Below, piece by piece: positions 32,277 through 41,079 of a DNA stretch of 41,235 nt. The stretch is from a candidate division WOR-3 bacterium (GTDB taxonomy: Bacteria; Hydrothermota; Tepidihabitantia; SM23-42): positions 1 to 41,235 of the forward strand of contig DRIG01000066.1 of assembly GCA_011052815.1 (NCBI GenBank). Reading direction: 5' to 3'. A program made the translations under genes and the position numbers. Each line of letters starts with the position of its first letter. The stretch's first letter is position 1. The notes beneath the pieces are model-generated. The model had not been told where the DNA came from. It saw only the letters and a list, made by a program, of their open reading frames with translations, and made no database searches.

Positions 32277-32942
32277 CTATTGAACCAACTTATTCTGAAT
32301 CGCTAGTCTGACCAGAGCAGCGGTGTTGTGGGCGTTCAATTTACGCATTATACTCAGTCGATGATGTTCCACGGTCCGCACGCTGATCCCCAGTTTACTG
32401 GCGGCTTTTTTATTCGAATCGCCTTCTGTAATGAGTTTAAGAACTTCCCGTTCGCGTGGCGTGAGGGTTGTGTATGGTGTTTTTTTTGTTCGTTTTGCCG
32501 GTTTCTGTTTACGCTGGACGAGCATTTTTATCACATCGCTTGAGAAAGTGGGGGAGACGTACAGTTTGTTGTTCTTCAATGTCTCGAGAGCGGTCATAAG
32601 TTCTTTGTCTGCATCTTCTTTGAGCAGGTATCCCTGAGCTCCACATGTCAGGGATTCATATACATATTCTTCATTTTTGTGCATCGTTAAGATGAGAATT
32701 TTAACTTTTTTGTTGAAACGCCTTATCTTTCTGATCGCCTCGATACCTCTGAGTCTGGGCATGGAAATATCGAGGATAACGATGTCGGGCTGTAATTTTT
32801 TAACGCCGGTGATGATCTCCAGACCGTCACCGGTTTCTCCGATGATCCTGTAATTACCTTTTTCCTCGATGATACGCTTTAACCCATTGCGGATTAGGGT
32901 ATGATCATCAGCCAGAAAGATTGAATAAGGCATAGTTATCAC
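32277..32942 (-). CDS. NarL/FixJ-family response regulator (second unit)
   Basis: The protein has 221 residues. The receiver (1-125) has D58 (IVILDISMPRLRG); a linker is followed by a LuxR-type helix-turn-helix (about 158-218: [36 protein letters not shown]). It should bind DNA when phosphorylated. It is a close paralogue of the 39076-39726 product. AAGGAG precedes the ATG. Its promoter and upstream motifs lie between 32960 and 33030. Confidence 0.95.
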   Translation of the reverse strand: MITMPYSIFLADDHTLIRNGLKRIIEEKGNYRIIGETGDGLEIITGVKKLQPDIVILDISMPRLRGIEAIRKIRRFNKKVKILILTMHKNEEYVYESLTCGAQGYLLKEDADKELMTALETLKNNKLYVSPTFSSDVIKMLVQRKQKPAKRTKKTPYTTLTPREREVLKLITEGDSNKKAASKLGISVRTVEHHRLSIMRKLNAHNTAALVRLAIQNKLVQ

Positions 32943-32959
32943 TCCTTTTCCATACTTAC

Positions 32960-32987
32960 ATTCTAAAAAATAACCGGGAAATTACAA
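32960..32987 (-). promoter_or_regulatory. Promoter of the second signalling unit
   Basis: On the minus strand, TTGTAA (32987-32982, 4/6 match to the consensus), a 16-bp spacer and TAGAAT (32965-32960). The weaker -35 box and the conserved motifs just upstream suggest an activator-dependent promoter. The leader is about 11 nt. Confidence 0.6.
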
Positions 32988-33030
32988 TAGAACCTATTGC
33001 GTATATTTACATATGTATAAATACCTATTT
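32985..33030 (-). promoter_or_regulatory. Candidate regulator-binding sites upstream of the second signalling unit
   Basis: On the minus strand, AAATAGGTATTTATAC (33030-33015) lies 28 nt before the -35 box, and the dyad CAATAG-N3-CTATTG (32999-32985), which contains a weaker AATAGGT copy, touches the -35 box. The first motif recurs with one mismatch upstream of the paralogous regulator at 39810-39825. Confidence 0.6.
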
Positions 33031-33062
33031 ACAAAATCGTGGGAGGTTAATTGTTTATTGTT

Positions 33063-33449
33063 TTAGCAGCTGAAAAGAACGCGGATTTTCTTTAATAAAT
33101 AAGGAAGCGGTTCTCCTTTGACAAAATAATCATCGGCTCCCGCCTCGGCGGTATAGGTGGCGGCCTCATTCTCCGACCAGATCGTGCAGATGATGATTTT
33201 TATCCAGGGATATTTTCCCTTAATTAAACGAGCGGTCTGTGGGCCGTCCATACCGGACATCCGTACATCCAGTATTATCAGGTCGGGTTTTTCTTTTTCA
33301 ATGAATTCAAGGGCGTCTTCACCTGTTTCCATAACTCCGAGTAATTTAATTTCCGGGTGTGATTCGAAAAAGCATTTAATCGCATCCTGGAAAAACAGAC
33401 TGTCGTCAACGACGAGAGTTCTTATTTTATCTTTTTTCATTCTGTTCAT
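33063..33449 (-). CDS. Stand-alone receiver domain protein
   Basis: The protein has 128 residues and contains only a receiver domain with D61 (LIILDVRMSG), the threonine/isoleucine strand (IIICTIWSE) and lysine K115 (YFVKGE). The sequence resembles the receiver of NarL-type regulators but no helix-turn-helix follows. It could be a phosphate sink or a relay partner for the REC-PAS-HisKA_3 kinase whose gene it overlaps by 23 nt. ATG 33440 is an alternative start. Confidence 0.85.
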   Translation of the reverse strand: MNRMKKDKIRTLVVDDSLFFQDAIKCFFESHPEIKLLGVMETGEDALEFIEKEKPDLIILDVRMSGMDGPQTARLIKGKYPWIKIIICTIWSENEAATYTAEAGADDYFVKGEPLPYLLKKIRVLFSC

Positions 33450-34881
33450 CTACAAGAGGGAAAGTTCCTCTGATGATAGTTCCTTTTCCCGGTTTCGTTC
33501 TGATGGTGATGCTCCCGCCGATCAAGCGCGCCCTTTCCTGCATAATAAGAAGACCGTAATGGCCTGTTCTTTTGTTCATGATGTTTTTCAAGTCAAAACC
33601 GATTCCATTATCTTCTATTTTTAATCTCAGGTTGTTTTTATACACTTTGAGTTCTAGGGAAACGGCGGTGGCGCGGGAATGTTTGTTTATGTTTGTGAGT
33701 GCCTCCTGGATAATACGGATGATGTTCGTTCGTATAATGAGGGTCATATCCGGCAGTTTTTCAGGATACTTGAAGTCTATCTTTATCTTTGAATCGATGA
33801 ATTTATGGTCGATTGTCTTTTTTATTACATGGATAAAACCTGCGTCAAATTCCCGGAGCGGTTCGATCTCACTGATCATCGCCCGTCCTCTTTTTATGGA
33901 CGTTTTAATTATTTCAATCAGTTTATTGCGCTGTTTCAATGTTTTCGCATCCAGCTTGGAAAGATCGATCATCTGAAAGAAATAGAGGACCGCAACCAAT
34001 CCCTGGAGAAGGTCGTCATGTATTTCAGACGCGAGATAGAGACGTTCCCTTTCCTGGGCATAAATAATCTTTTTCGTCAATTCTTTGGTGCGCCGCTGTT
34101 CTTCCCGCAGTGCTTTTTCCATATTCTTGCGTCTTGTGACATCCCTTACGATACCGAGAAATCCCTGGATTCCTCTTTCTTCTTCTTCGATTATCGTCGT
34201 ACTCACCTCAAAGATCTTTGTTTTTCCCTTTACATCCTTTATTTTAACTTCCATCAGTTCAGTGGTATCTTTCGTATCGAGGACATTCTGGAAAAGATCA
34301 GAGAATTTTGCTATTGTTTCTTCACCGAGGAAAGAAAGGTCTAAAAAGTTTTTATTTATTATCCTGCTGCGTTTAAAGCCGAGTATCTTTTCGACCTTTC
34401 CGTTGATGTCGATGATTTTGCCGTCTTTATTTAAATATACGATGATATCATTCGCCTTTTCAAAGATTGTTCTGAATTTCTCTTCGCTCTCTCGCAATTT
34501 TCCTTCAATTTTGTGTTTGTAGAGCGCCAGCTCAATGGCTGATTTTAATTCGGTGTCTTCGAACGGTTTCAGTATATATCCGAACGGCTCGGTTATTTTG
34601 GCACGTTCCAGGGTTTGGTTGTCTGCATAGGCGGTGATGTAGACCACAGGAATTTTGAAACGGGTACGGATCTGTTCAGCAGCCTCGATCCCGTCCATTC
34701 TTCCTTTGAGTTTGATGTCCATAAGTACAATATCCGGATCTTCTTTCTTTATTTTTTTTACGGCTGCTTCACCGCTTGCTGAGATGGATGTCACCTGATA
34801 ACCGAGGTTTATCAACCTTTGCTCGATATCTTTGGCTACGATACTTTCGTCTTCGACAATTAATATCCGCGTCCCGGACAT
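33427..34881 (-). CDS. REC-PAS sensor histidine kinase, HisKA_3 (NarX/DegS) type
   Basis: The protein has 484 residues: receiver (1-120, D55), PAS (about 132-252), HisKA_3 dimerisation domain with H288 (YLASEIHDDLLQG), and HATPase (about 370-478, with DNGIGFDL and GHYGLLIMQERARLIGG). HisKA_3 kinases usually phosphorylate NarL-type regulators, two of which are encoded nearby. The N-terminal receiver makes it an inverted hybrid kinase. There is no membrane segment, so it is cytosolic. The ribosome binding site is weak; the gene starts 11 nt after the upstream stop. Confidence 0.93.
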   Translation of the reverse strand: MSGTRILIVEDESIVAKDIEQRLINLGYQVTSISASGEAAVKKIKKEDPDIVLMDIKLKGRMDGIEAAEQIRTRFKIPVVYITAYADNQTLERAKITEPFGYILKPFEDTELKSAIELALYKHKIEGKLRESEEKFRTIFEKANDIIVYLNKDGKIIDINGKVEKILGFKRSRIINKNFLDLSFLGEETIAKFSDLFQNVLDTKDTTELMEVKIKDVKGKTKIFEVSTTIIEEEERGIQGFLGIVRDVTRRKNMEKALREEQRRTKELTKKIIYAQERERLYLASEIHDDLLQGLVAVLYFFQMIDLSKLDAKTLKQRNKLIEIIKTSIKRGRAMISEIEPLREFDAGFIHVIKKTIDHKFIDSKIKIDFKYPEKLPDMTLIIRTNIIRIIQEALTNINKHSRATAVSLELKVYKNNLRLKIEDNGIGFDLKNIMNKRTGHYGLLIMQERARLIGGSITIRTKPGKGTIIRGTFPLVDEQNEKR

Positions 34882-34892
34882 AAAATCAGTTT

Positions 34893-35987
34893 CTACTTGA
34901 TTTTCTCAAAGGTAATGGTGAATTTTGTTCCACCTTTTCTTTCCAATTTTATCGTACCGTTCAGTTGTTCAACGAGTGTTTTAACCAGTTGCAGCCCCAG
35001 GGTCTTTAAGCTATTCAGCGTGATATGCTGAGGAATGCCGACTCCATTATCTCTGATAATTAAGGTATAGAGATTTTTTTTGCTCTTACGGAGTATTACG
35101 TCGATCTTATGCTGTCTGCGGGTTTTCGGGATTATGGAAAGGCGGGGGAATGCATATTTTAAAGCATTTGACAGCAGTTCATTGATGATCAATGCGCAGG
35201 GAATCGCCGTATTGATATCAAAATATATGTTTTTGATATTGATGTTCAATTTAATACGTGATCTACTTATTCCATAGGACAGCATCAACTGTTTACTGAG
35301 GTCTTTTACATATTCTTCACAGTCTACGTGTGTCAGGTCTTTTGATTCATATAGTTTTTCGTGGATCAATGCCATTGTCCTGATGCGATTCTGACTGTGG
35401 CGCAGGACCGTGGTTATCTTTCCATCCGCACTGTGGCGGATCTGGAGGTTCAAGAGGCTTGATATGATCTGCATATTATTCTTAACTCGATGATGGATTT
35501 CTTTCAAAAGCACTTCTTTTTCCTGAAGTGATTCTTTAATGGTTTTTTCGGCTTCCCGCTTTTCACACTCGAGTTTTATTGAATGGAGTGCGAATGCAAG
35601 GTCGCCGCTGATCTCTTTGAGTAATGAAAGTTCTTCCCGGTCGAATATCCGGGAGTGGAGTACATAGAGGGTCGCTTTTATCGTATTTTTTATGATGGGT
35701 GAGATTACGAGATACTTTCCGTTGAAAGACTCTGCATGGAGTTTTCTCTTCTGGAGAACTTTTTCGCCCAGGATTTTCTTTTTCAGTTTTTTACATTCTT
35801 TACGGTCTCCTGCTTGGAATATCCTGCCGTCGTAATGGATCAGGATTGCGGTGTAGCCTTTCACTTTGATCAGGATGTCGCATGCCTTTTGAAGGAGTAG
35901 TTCTTTTTCTTGCTCTCTGGTGATGAGCTGATTCACGTTGCGGATCGCGCGCAACACAAGATTGAGGTGTTGCTCTCTCTTATTCAT
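34893..35987 (-). CDS. GAF-like sensor histidine kinase, HisKA_2 type
   Basis: The protein has 364 residues. The N-terminal part (1-140) looks like a degenerate GAF domain. The HisKA_2 motif [14 protein letters not shown] carries H165/H166, followed by the HATPase domain (about 255-362; [31 protein letters not shown]). There is no membrane segment. The ATG overlaps the upstream kinase stop by 4 nt (ATGA). The C-terminal 200 residues are closely similar to the end of that upstream kinase, so the pair probably arose by duplication. Confidence 0.92.
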
Positions 35988-38900
35988 TTTTTGAAGGTAA
36001 TGGTAAATTTTGTACCTTCCTTGACTTCAACCGTAATGACACCGCTGAGCTGCTCCACCAATGCCGATACCAGCTGCAGTCCCAGTGATTTTGTTTTTTG
36101 GAGATCGATGTTTTTCGGCAGCCCCACACCGTTGTCGCTGACGATAAGAACGGTTCTGTTGCGTTTATCCTGGAATAATTTTAAGGTGATCTCCGGAGAT
36201 CGGGGTAGAGAACGAGGAAAGGCATGTTTCAATGAGTTGGAAATCAGTTCATTGATTATTAAACCGCAGGGGATCGCCGTATCGATATTCAACGTGATGT
36301 TCTTTATGTTTTTCTTCAGAACAACGGTTTTGGGTTTTACACCATAAGAGTGAAAGAGATGCCTTACCAGACCGTCGATATAATCATCCGCTTTGATGTT
36401 TGCAAGGTCTTTTGATTGGTACAGTTTTTCGTGTATGAGCACCATTGATTTAATACGGTTTTGGCTTTCTTTGAAGAGATTCTGGTAATACTCGTCTTTG
36501 ATATATCCGGCCTGGAGATTCAAGAGGCTTGAAATGATCTGCAGATTATTTTTCACTCGGTGATGGATTTCTTTGAGGAGCGCTTCTTTCTCTTTCAATG
36601 ACGCCTTTAATTTTTCTTCGGCTTCGATACGCTGTTTCAGCTCTTTTTTACTCTCTTCATACAACTGGGCGTTTATGATCGCAAGTGCGATCTGCTGGGC
36701 GATCGAGGTCAACAGGCGCTCTTCCTGTTTGGACAGCAGACAGGAGGTTCTGCAGCCGACGATCATCAGCCCCACAACTTTTCCTTTCGCCTGCAATAAT
36801 ACATAGTGCATATACTTCAGGTTCAGTCCTTCTTTCCTTATCGCCAAGAGTATTCTTTCGAACTCCCTTGGATTGGATATTATCGTTTTTAGAGACAATA
36901 TAAATTCCCCTAATTTACCTTTTTCCTCTACCATCTTTATCGTCCCCTCATCAACGCTTATCACCTTTACCTCTTTCGCGAACTTTTTGGAAACACCGCT
37001 GTGGACGAACAGTTCCAATTTGCTTCTTGTTTCATCAGCAAGATATATGCCGCCAATTTCAAGGTTCATCACTTCCAGTATTTTAGCGAGTGCGGCACTT
37101 AAAGTTTCCTGTAGATAGAGTGATTGGCTGATGACTTTGGAGATGGTGTTCAATGTGGCGAGTTCCTTGGTACGCTGTATAACTTCTTCTTCTGAACGCT
37201 TGCGTTCTGTGATGTCGCGCATGAAGACGAGAAACGCCGGTTTTCCCAAGTAATTAATTATTGTGCTGTTTATTTCAGCCGGGATGAGGGTACCGTCCTT
37301 TTTTTGAATTTCTATTTCATAGATATTCGGGACGCTTTTGCCGGCGAGGCGATCTTTCACCCGCTGTCGTATCATTGAGTGGTATTTCTTGGCAATGAAG
37401 TCGGTGATGTTTTTCCCCATGATCTCCTTAAATCTATAACCTCCAATTTTACAGGCGGCGGAGTTTGCGAATTTTACCACACCGTTCTGGTGGATGATTA
37501 TTGCATCTTTGCTGTTTTCAACGACAGACGAGTATTTTTCTTCACTTTCGCGCATTGCTTTTTCAGCCTCTCTGGTCTGCATAAGCAGGTAGGCGTTATT
37601 GATGGCGGTCGCCGCCGTGTTCGCCAGGGTTTTGACGATTTCCAGTTCTTCTTCAGATATTTCCTTACGTGGTGATGAGATCATTATTCCACCGATGATC
37701 TTCTTTTCCACTTCCAGGGGTACGACCATATAGTTCCGCGAACTGCCGATTTTCTGTAACGCCTGACATATCTTTTTGCTTAAGATCGGATAAGCTATCT
37801 CTTCCAGGGATGCGGCGGTGACGATCTTCCCAGTCAGTGCCGAACGGGTTTTTGCTCCGAGGTCGGCGTCAGCAGAAAAGGAGAGATTTTTGATTGAATA
37901 ACCCAGAATTTCATTTATTTTTTGGAAAAGATTATGTCGTGTGGAGGATGTTTTGACCTCAAAGCGATTTTTCTGTTCATTCAGCATCAGGATAAAGGCA
38001 CTGTTGTATTCAAGGAGATTTATAAAACCCTCGGTTATCTGCTTGAATATCTTATTCAACTCCAGGCTGCTGTGAAGGGTCGCAGTGATTTCTTGAAGCA
38101 TCTTCAGTTCTTTGTGCTTCTTCAAAATGTTTTCTTCGGCTTTTTTCTGTTCTGTGATGTCATGATTCACAGCCACGGTACCGATGTAATTGTTTGTGTG
38201 GTCATTAATCAAACTGATGGAGGACAACACCTTCATCCGTGAGCCGTCTTTTCTCTCCTGGATTAATTCACCACGCCAGTGTTCTTTTTTGAAAAGCTCT
38301 TTCATCGCTTTTTCTTCTGTTCCGCTCGGGAATATTGAATTGGTGACCTTGTGTAGAGGTTTTCCAAGGACTTCATACGCCTGCCACCCGTACATCTGTT
38401 CCGCTGCACGGTTCCATGTTCGGATCCGGAAGTCAAGATCAGTGGAGATTATAGCATCGGAGACGTTCTGGAGCAAGTCTGCCTGGTAATGGAGTTTTTC
38501 CATTGTCCTTTTGCGGTCTGTAATATCTCTTATAATCCCCAGAGTTCCAAGAAACTTCTTGTTTTTCATCTTTGCCGAGGGGTTATAATATCCGGTGGAA
38601 CTTACATCACCGAATGCGATCACCTCGCCGATCAGGGGTTCAATATCCTTCTTGTTTTTCTGTTTTTTCGGTATAAGCCGGACTTCAAGATTTTTTGTTT
38701 TTCGCACGCCGGTTCTTCTTTCATCGAAGAGTTTTGGTGCATTTTCGTCACCGGTGATTTTACCTCTGTATTTCGGCAAAACATATAATCTTCCGAATTC
38801 CCTGACATCGTCAGGATGTATTATTTTACTGAAGTGCTCACCGATTAATTCTTCGGGGTCATATCCAAGTATCCGTACTGAATTATTGACGAAAGTGAAA

Positions 38901-39067
38901 TAACCGTCCGGGTCTATTTTATAGACGATATCCGGTAATTCTTTTAAGATCGCCAGATATTTTTCCTCGTCTTCCAGTTTTGTTTGGCTTGATCTGTATC
39001 GGCGGTAGGCTCTTTTTTGTTTAATCCTTCTCCTGCCTTTTTGGGTTATTTTCTTTCTGGCGTTCAT
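35984..39067 (-). CDS. Multi-sensor histidine kinase PAS-PAS-GAF-PAS-GAF-HisKA_2
   Basis: The protein has 1027 residues and no membrane segment. A basic N-terminus (1-30) is followed by PAS1 (about 35-190, with a long insert around 100-165), PAS2 (195-315), GAF1 (330-495), PAS3 (505-630), GAF2 (640-800), the HisKA_2 motif [14 protein letters not shown] (histidine near residue 834) and the HATPase domain (about 920-1025; [19 protein letters not shown]). It integrates several cytosolic cues; ligands are unknown. It starts 8 nt after the NarL regulator gene with AGGTGGAAG before the ATG. Confidence 0.93.
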
Positions 39068-39075
39068 ACTTCCAC

Positions 39076-39726
39076 CTATGTCACCTCGATCAACCCTGTT
39101 TTTATGGCATATTTTATCAGCTGGGCGGTGTTTTGTATATTAAGTTTCCGCATAATGCTAAGACGATGATGTTCCACGGTCCTGACACTGATGCCGAGTT
39201 TTTTCGCCACCTTTTTGTTCGAGTTTGCTTCTGCAATGAGTTTGAGTACTTCTCTTTCACGTGGAGACAAGCTTTTGAATGCAGAATTTTCCCTGGCACT
39301 CTTTTTATGCTCAAGCAGCCTTCTGAGGACATCGCTTGAGAAAGAACATGAGATATAAAGTTTATTATTCCGCAGGGAATTGATTGCACTTATTAATTCT
39401 GTATCAGCATCTTCTTTCAGAACATACCCATGGGCGCCGTTAAGCAGGCATTCATAGACATATTCTTCATTTTTATGCATTGTCAGAATTAGAATCTTTA
39501 TTTTTTTATCAACCCGTTTTATCTTTCTGACCGCCTCAATACCTCTTAAATTGGGCATGGATATATCCAGAATTATCATTTCCGGATTAAGTTTCCTGAT
39601 TTGTGGAACTATTTGGAGTCCATCACCGGTTTCACCGATGATCTTTAATCCTGAATTCTCCTCAATGATTCTTTTCAGACCATCCCGTAACAGGGTATGG
39701 TCGTCTGCCAGAAAGATAGTATACAT
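39076..39726 (-). CDS. NarL/FixJ-family response regulator (first unit)
   Basis: The protein has 216 residues, with a receiver (1-120, D54 in [12 protein letters not shown]) and LuxR-type helix-turn-helix (about 152-212: [36 protein letters not shown]). It is very similar over its length to the 32277-32942 product. It heads an operon of three kinases and a receiver. AGGAG precedes the ATG. The leader from the upstream consensus promoter is about 118 nt and contains two copies of the AAATAGGTA motif. Confidence 0.95.
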
Positions 39727-39964: not shown

Positions 39965-41029
39965 TTATCTTACAACTATTTTCCCGTTCGTTGTCAGTGT
40001 TTGACTATCGAATCTATAGAAATATACGCCGGCGCCCACCTGGGAACCGGTGTCATCCTTGAGCGACCATTTGATTGATTCTCTATTGCCGGTTGCTGTA
40101 CCTGTCATCTTTGTAATGAGACGGCCTGTGATATCAAAGATACTGATTTCATAATGAGAACCAATGGGTAGTTCAAACTGGAAGTTTGTTCCGTTGACGC
40201 AAGGGTTGGGAACCGGTGATATCTTCTGAACGGTGGTAGTTTTCGAAGATTCCTCTTTTATTCCTATGAGGTCAAGAACCTTTACGATTCCACCCTGCCA
40301 TACTTCTTTAGTGGAATCAGAGGCAAGAGTCGGATTTTGAATGAACGTCACGATTTCGCACATACTGTCATCCCACCCTGATTGAATGGTAAAGCTCTGA
40401 GTCACCGTGACTGAGTCTCCCGGTGCGATGCTGACACTCTGGCCGTTTTGATTCGGTATATAATCACGAGCCACATGGTTATGCCAGTAATCGCCGTTCG
40501 GAGCTGCATAATACAGACTATCTTCAGTGATGACGAAGAGGACTCTTCCGTTCAACGTCGCTGTCGAATCGTTGCGGAACTGGGCGTTTATTGTACCGGT
40601 TCCTGTTCCCGGATCATAATCGCCCCACATCGTGACAGTAACCGGTGATGGTTGACTCATCCGACTGGTGATTTTTGATTCCCATGTCGAGTAAGTGTAA
40701 CTGCCGTGGGGGTCGCCGTCGTACCAGAGCCAGGGGGTCGCATAGTACCACGAGCCATTATAATAATATGGAGGAGGATAGGTGTACATACGCTGCACTG
40801 CCTCGGCACAATACAGGGGATAGCTTGAAGAGATATGCATTTCAATGGCAGCGACTCTTCCAGGATAGTTTATTGCGATATTAGCCAGTGTCCCACTGGC
40901 GGGATTGCATGAACTTCAACCTTCCTGATAGAGTTCTTCACAGACCACGACACGCTCTGCAGCGAAGAGAGGTGAGAGCATGCCGATTCCTGCAACAAGA
41001 CTTAAACCTAATAATAGAGCTTTTTTCAT
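39965..41029 (-). CDS. Predicted secreted selenoprotein: thioredoxin-fold UxxC domain with C-terminal sorting domain
   Basis: The reading frame runs from ATG 41029 to the stop at 39965 with one internal TGA (40918-40916). Read through, it gives 354 residues. A signal peptide (MKKALLLGLSLVAGIGMLSPLFA) is followed by RVVVCEELYQEG, the TGA as residue 38, then SSC: a UxxC motif in place of the CxxC of Omp28-like thioredoxin folds. EMHISSSYPLYCAEAVQ and a TPWLWYDG cis-proline-like loop continue that fold. Residues about 135-255 look like a beta-sandwich, and 271-354 a FlgD/Por-type sorting domain (PVPNPCVNG; GAGVYFYRF). AAGGAGG is 4 nt before ATG 41029. A start at 40840 would lose the signal peptide and active site. 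A nonsense mutation is the main alternative. Confidence 0.82.
40884..40918 (-). promoter_or_regulatory. Candidate bacterial SECIS element with its UGA
   Basis: On the minus strand the UGA (40918-40916) is followed by 15 nt and then a perfect 7-bp hairpin, GCCAGTG-GGA-CACTGGC (40900-40884). The apical loop begins with G and lies 22 nt after the UGA, within the window usual for SelB-dependent insertion. A possible lower stem pairs TGC (40909-40907) with GCA further downstream. Confidence 0.75.
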
Positions 41030-41079
41030 ATCGCCTCCTTTCCGATGGGAAATTTCTCTATTCTACTATAACTTTATAT

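Follow-up and report, generated by a model that had tools for sequence, protein, structure and literature searches.

A thioredoxin-like UxxC selenoprotein, GOS_C, was described in 2008 in a study whose new families bore SECIS-like elements (PMC2398784), and this family corresponds to the protein model NF045500 for Omp28-related selenoproteins (PMC13188914). According to published criteria, a bacterial SECIS is a coding-region stem-loop downstream of an in-frame UGA, with the loop 16–37 nt away, an upper stem of 4–16 bp, a loop of 3–9 nt with a G among its first two positions, and an MFE of -7.5 or lower (PMC13188914). A structurally characterized point of comparison is HBP35 of Porphyromonas gingivalis, which reduces insulin via the two cysteines of its thioredoxin motif and has a C-terminal domain involved in outer-membrane transport (PMC2907840). 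The Omp28 family (Pfam: PF11551) is not defined by selenocysteine (Sec), and in the open-access literature we found no account of Omp28 as a selenoprotein and, for WOR-3 together with selenocysteine, a single paper containing few mentions.

We analyzed a window of 41,235 nt, the whole of the stretch studied here, from a candidate division WOR-3 bacterium (contig DRIG01000066.1). Its features of interest are a minus-strand gene with an in-frame TGA and a hairpin shortly downstream of that codon (Table 1). Standard ORF calling reduces this gene to a truncated fragment of 291 aa; in the genomes of the family many homologues have exactly one in-frame TGA. A TTGACA hexamer lies upstream of the gene, as read from the sequence by inspection rather than by a promoter scan. 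On the 3' side of the gene the window carries, on the same strand (32277-39726), two-component genes coding for PAS/GAF histidine kinases and response regulators, including two of the LuxR type.

Table 1. Features of the predicted selenoprotein gene and its surroundings in the window
Feature	Position	Strand	Remarks
Selenoprotein gene	39965..41029	(-)	354 codons, one in-frame TGA; Omp28 and Por_Secre_tail matches
Domain order of the product	39965..41029		N-terminal signal-peptide-like stretch (assigned by eye only), thioredoxin-like domain with UxxC, beta-sandwich, T9SS-type C-terminal tail
In-frame TGA, codon 38 (U38 of EGU-SSC)	40916..40918	(-)	Opposite the first CxxC cysteine of 14 Cys homologues; retained by 91 homologues
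Predicted bacterial SECIS hairpin GCCAGTG-GGA-CACTGGC	40884..40900	(-)	Loop 22 nt after the TGA
Apical loop GGA	40891..40893	(-)	At least 90% of 59 homologues keep its first G (alignment column 26)
Shine-Dalgarno-like AGGAGG region 5' of the ATG	41034..41042	(-)	Read directly from the sequence

The preliminary description of this locus, which spanned 40884-40918 from the TGA through the end of the stem, had reported seven perfect base pairs starting 15 nt after the TGA and a G-starting loop 22 nt from it, and had proposed that both position and loop fit a bacterial SECIS. Re-measurement gave exactly these distances for a 17-nt hairpin with 7 Watson-Crick pairs, and a script applying the published bSECIS criteria (PMC13188914) recovered it on every count (7 bp, GGA, 22 nt, -11.2 kcal/mol). 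The hairpin resembles the bacterial SECIS model in lying within the coding region and in its stem and G-first loop, but differs in that its 3-nt loop is at the minimum length of the model and its conserved core is just 5–6 bp (see below). Dinucleotide shuffling of the 51-nt region left the fold unremarkable (z -1.14, with equally good folds in 27 of 200 shuffles), and because this gave no clear signal we used a null that preserves the protein. When codons were resampled synonymously, 61 of 5000 recodings (~1%) folded equally well and 1.9% had stems 7 bp long or longer, which supports the earlier claim that the hairpin is not demanded by the protein sequence. Within the window, only 4 of the 795 minus-strand TGA triplets are accompanied, 16–37 nt off, by a perfect hairpin whose stem has 7 bp or more and whose first or second loop base is G. 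Judged on the single gene, the hairpin is moderately unusual and hence suggestive; it is the homologues that make the case decisive.

The encoded protein matches Omp28 (PF11551; 1.4e-16, 61.2 bits against a gathering cut-off of 34.9), Por_Secre_tail from Pfam (1.5e-6) and the T9SS type A C-terminal sorting domain TIGR04183 (37.9 bits against a cut-off of 23). To NF045500 it shows a weak match over residues 25-254, scoring 44 bits where the cut-off is 200, a score that none of the 147 WOR-3 genomes attains; other selenoprotein models were run on the window's own protein only. It shares with GOS_C a thioredoxin-like fold with UxxC and a SECIS-like element downstream, but differs in falling far under the cut-off of that family, in its T9SS-type tail and in the several paralogues that many genomes carry. 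For the 230-residue part surrounding UxxC, the predicted fold (pLDDT 94.1) matches HBP35 (PDB: 5y1a; Z 24.3, 220 residues, rmsd 2.4), followed by AGR_C_4864 and an Omp28 domain (PDB: 2r2c; Z 10.0). HBP35 has in common with it the fold, the thioredoxin motif and a C-terminal domain linked to outer-membrane transport, but has two cysteines (C48, C51) in place of UxxC, and the two proteins are 16% identical. A sequence search of the PDB returned no relevant match for the thioredoxin or Omp28 part, and for the tail a weak match to PorU (E 0.047). By sequence and predicted structure, then, the protein is Omp28/HBP35-like, predicted to be exported, and a distant relative of the selenoprotein GOS_C.

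Among named relatives, the closest are genomes of candidate division WOR-3/Candidatus Stahlbacteria. A phylum search of 147 genomes recovered 91 genes with TGA and 14 with TGC/TGT at the same position, of which 76 and 14, respectively, remained after removal of near-copies at 85% DNA identity. The aligned position opens a U/C-x-x-C motif, such that the UGA stands where the Cys homologues have their redox cysteine. In a tree, a 59-member main clade is entirely TGA, whereas elsewhere Sec and Cys interchange, with at least 5 changes. One homologue (L014; G012:C91) contains an in-frame TAG besides the Sec TGA, and may be a pseudogene or reflect an assembly error.

Using one simple motif, CP[GSN] following UxxC, we divided these genes into a main and a long subfamily and measured folding against synonymous recodings in successive windows. 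Over codons 4-14 past the TGA, z averaged -2.49 in the main TGA subfamily (sem 0.12, n=61) and -2.06 in the long one (sem 0.17, n=15), and in both it stayed near zero in all ten windows further downstream. Cys homologues showed no fold signal at codons 4-14, with z of +0.12 in the long (n=12) and +0.16 in the main subfamily (n=2), so that most of this contrast comes from the long subfamily. Hairpins obeying the strict published SECIS constraints occur in 49/76 TGA genes as against 0/14 Cys genes; with the limit relaxed to -5 kcal/mol, a G-loop hairpin at 16–37 nt is present in 73/76 and 3/14, respectively. Homologues with the TGA but devoid of a hairpin, the outcome named at the outset as speaking against a SECIS, therefore proved rare, and the 3 remaining TGA homologues have weak hairpins only. 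The long subfamily has a hairpin of its own in a different register (GGCAAG-AGGT-CTTGCC), which its Cys members show in weakened form or not at all. In one family, the Cys homologues L136, L137 and L140 retain CAGCGC-GT-GCGCTG at the SECIS position; this is possibly a remnant of a Sec-containing ancestor, or merely a product of the protein's own codons.

Covariation of the stem, which the preliminary description had put forward as a check, was examined in 59 sequences (the 61 main-subfamily rows minus the most divergent, L133 and L134), with a positive result. Paired cells amount to 86.2%, compared to 78.4% after shuffling, and 51 cells are changed on both sides, compared to 15.3 in shuffles; neither value was reached in any of 500 shuffles. 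When the partners are slid by one to three bases, pairing falls to 20–42%. As the shuffles ignore relatedness, this slid control and the contrast with the Cys homologues weigh more. Pair 24-30 alternates between C-G and U-A (26 and 25 sequences), and pair 25-29 between G-C and A-U; in pair 21-33, C-G and A-U both occur. The conserved core of ~5–6 bp comprises pairs 20-34 to 24-30 and, in part, 25-29, while the outer pair 19-35 is weak and unpaired in 27/59 homologues.

The host genome contains SelA, SelB, SelD and tRNA-Sec, the complement sought in a selenoprotein host. The selA and selB genes (551.7 and 351 bits) lie side by side with the tRNA-Sec gene (anticodon TCA; 77.4 bits) adjacent to them on contig C30, and selD (320.9 bits) is on C61. 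An in-frame TGA also occurs within selD itself, together with a hairpin, CTGCGC-AGTTG-GCGCAG, whose loop likewise begins 22 nt after that TGA. In this selD (L040:1192-2502), a ferredoxin-thioredoxin reductase catalytic-chain domain (FeThRed_B; 1.5e-14) is fused at the N-terminus, and at L009:8042-15670 tRNA-Sec, selB and selA adjoin genes for a BadF-type ATPase, a uroporphyrinogen-decarboxylase-like protein and two 2-hydroxyglutaryl-CoA dehydratase D-component-like proteins. Among the matches listed, tRNA-Sec accompanies the TGA form in 46/55 genomes, as against 0/20 genomes with the Cys form only (Fisher 1.2e-11, a nominal value given that the genomes are related). Nine TGA-form genomes have no detected tRNA-Sec among the matches listed, two of them being single-contig assemblies that are 90–91% complete; SelB exceeds its cut-off in 6 of these nine, compared to none of the 6 Cys-only genomes checked. 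A search next to selB in five TGA genomes of this kind found no tRNA-Sec. The single-contig genomes G005 and G006 have several TGA homologues and SelB, and their missing tRNA-Sec could possibly be due to an incomplete assembly or a divergent tRNA.

At the level of sequence, we observe a hairpin selected for in TGA homologues only, its covariation, a complete Sec machinery and the co-occurrence of tRNA-Sec with the TGA form; the further steps draw on established knowledge of the Sec pathway, which is textbook material, and on analogy to HBP35. The hairpin is very likely a bacterial SECIS: SelB carrying Sec-tRNA(Sec) would bind its apical G-loop and direct insertion of Sec at the UGA of codon 38, thereby equipping an exported thioredoxin-like oxidoreductase of the Omp28/HBP35 type with its UxxC active site. 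By comparison to HBP35, such a protein would probably carry out thiol-disulfide chemistry either within the envelope or on the surface of the cell.

The modest single-gene statistics given above, namely the frequency of 7-bp stems among synonymous recodings and the shuffle z-score, could speak for a genuine stop codon, or for an error of sequencing or assembly, with the downstream frame a decayed gene and the hairpin a product of chance. Yet 76 non-redundant homologues, spread over many genera, retain this TGA, the frame stays open for the next 120 codons and the hairpin signal is family-wide; we consider this reading exceedingly improbable and reject a pseudogene, which the conservation of the TGA in effect refutes. 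An open frame, once TGA is read as an amino acid, would equally be produced by genome-wide reassignment of TGA to Trp or another residue, or by readthrough without a SECIS. Against this, 8 of the 30 larger ORFs in the window terminate at TGA, TGG codons are also used, the residue falls opposite the Cys of CxxC, and the full Sec machinery is present. The chance of this reading being correct is minimal, and reassignment of the genetic code was rejected on account of the TGA stops in window ORFs and the alignment with Cys. Slightly more credible, though still very unlikely, is a hairpin maintained by constraint on the encoded ASGTLA residues or by a regulatory role of the RNA, with Sec inserted via another element. 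The encoded A-S-G-T-L residues are themselves well conserved, but the z of -2.5 was obtained with the protein held fixed by synonymous recoding, the stem undergoes compensatory changes, the hairpin is absent in Cys homologues and its spacing to the TGA is nearly fixed, all of which favor a SECIS.

The gene appears to be a new, divergent Omp28-type selenoprotein from a branch that seems to lie outside existing protein models, in a phylum where NF045500, the single curated model for Omp28 selenoproteins, stays under its cut-off. There is perhaps an even chance that WOR-3 possesses an expanded clade of HBP35-like selenoproteins, exported and exclusively of the Sec form, with several paralogues per genome and some of these in tandem, which a T9SS-type tail displays outside the cytoplasm and which constitutes an extracytoplasmic, selenium-based thiol system. 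In practical terms, the gene model is corrected where standard ORF calling yields only a fragment, and a phylum-wide selenoprotein clade under the NF045500 cut-off would allow annotators to recover dozens of mis-called genes. Beyond annotation, the finding poses a testable question regarding the use of selenium in the envelope of an uncultured lineage.
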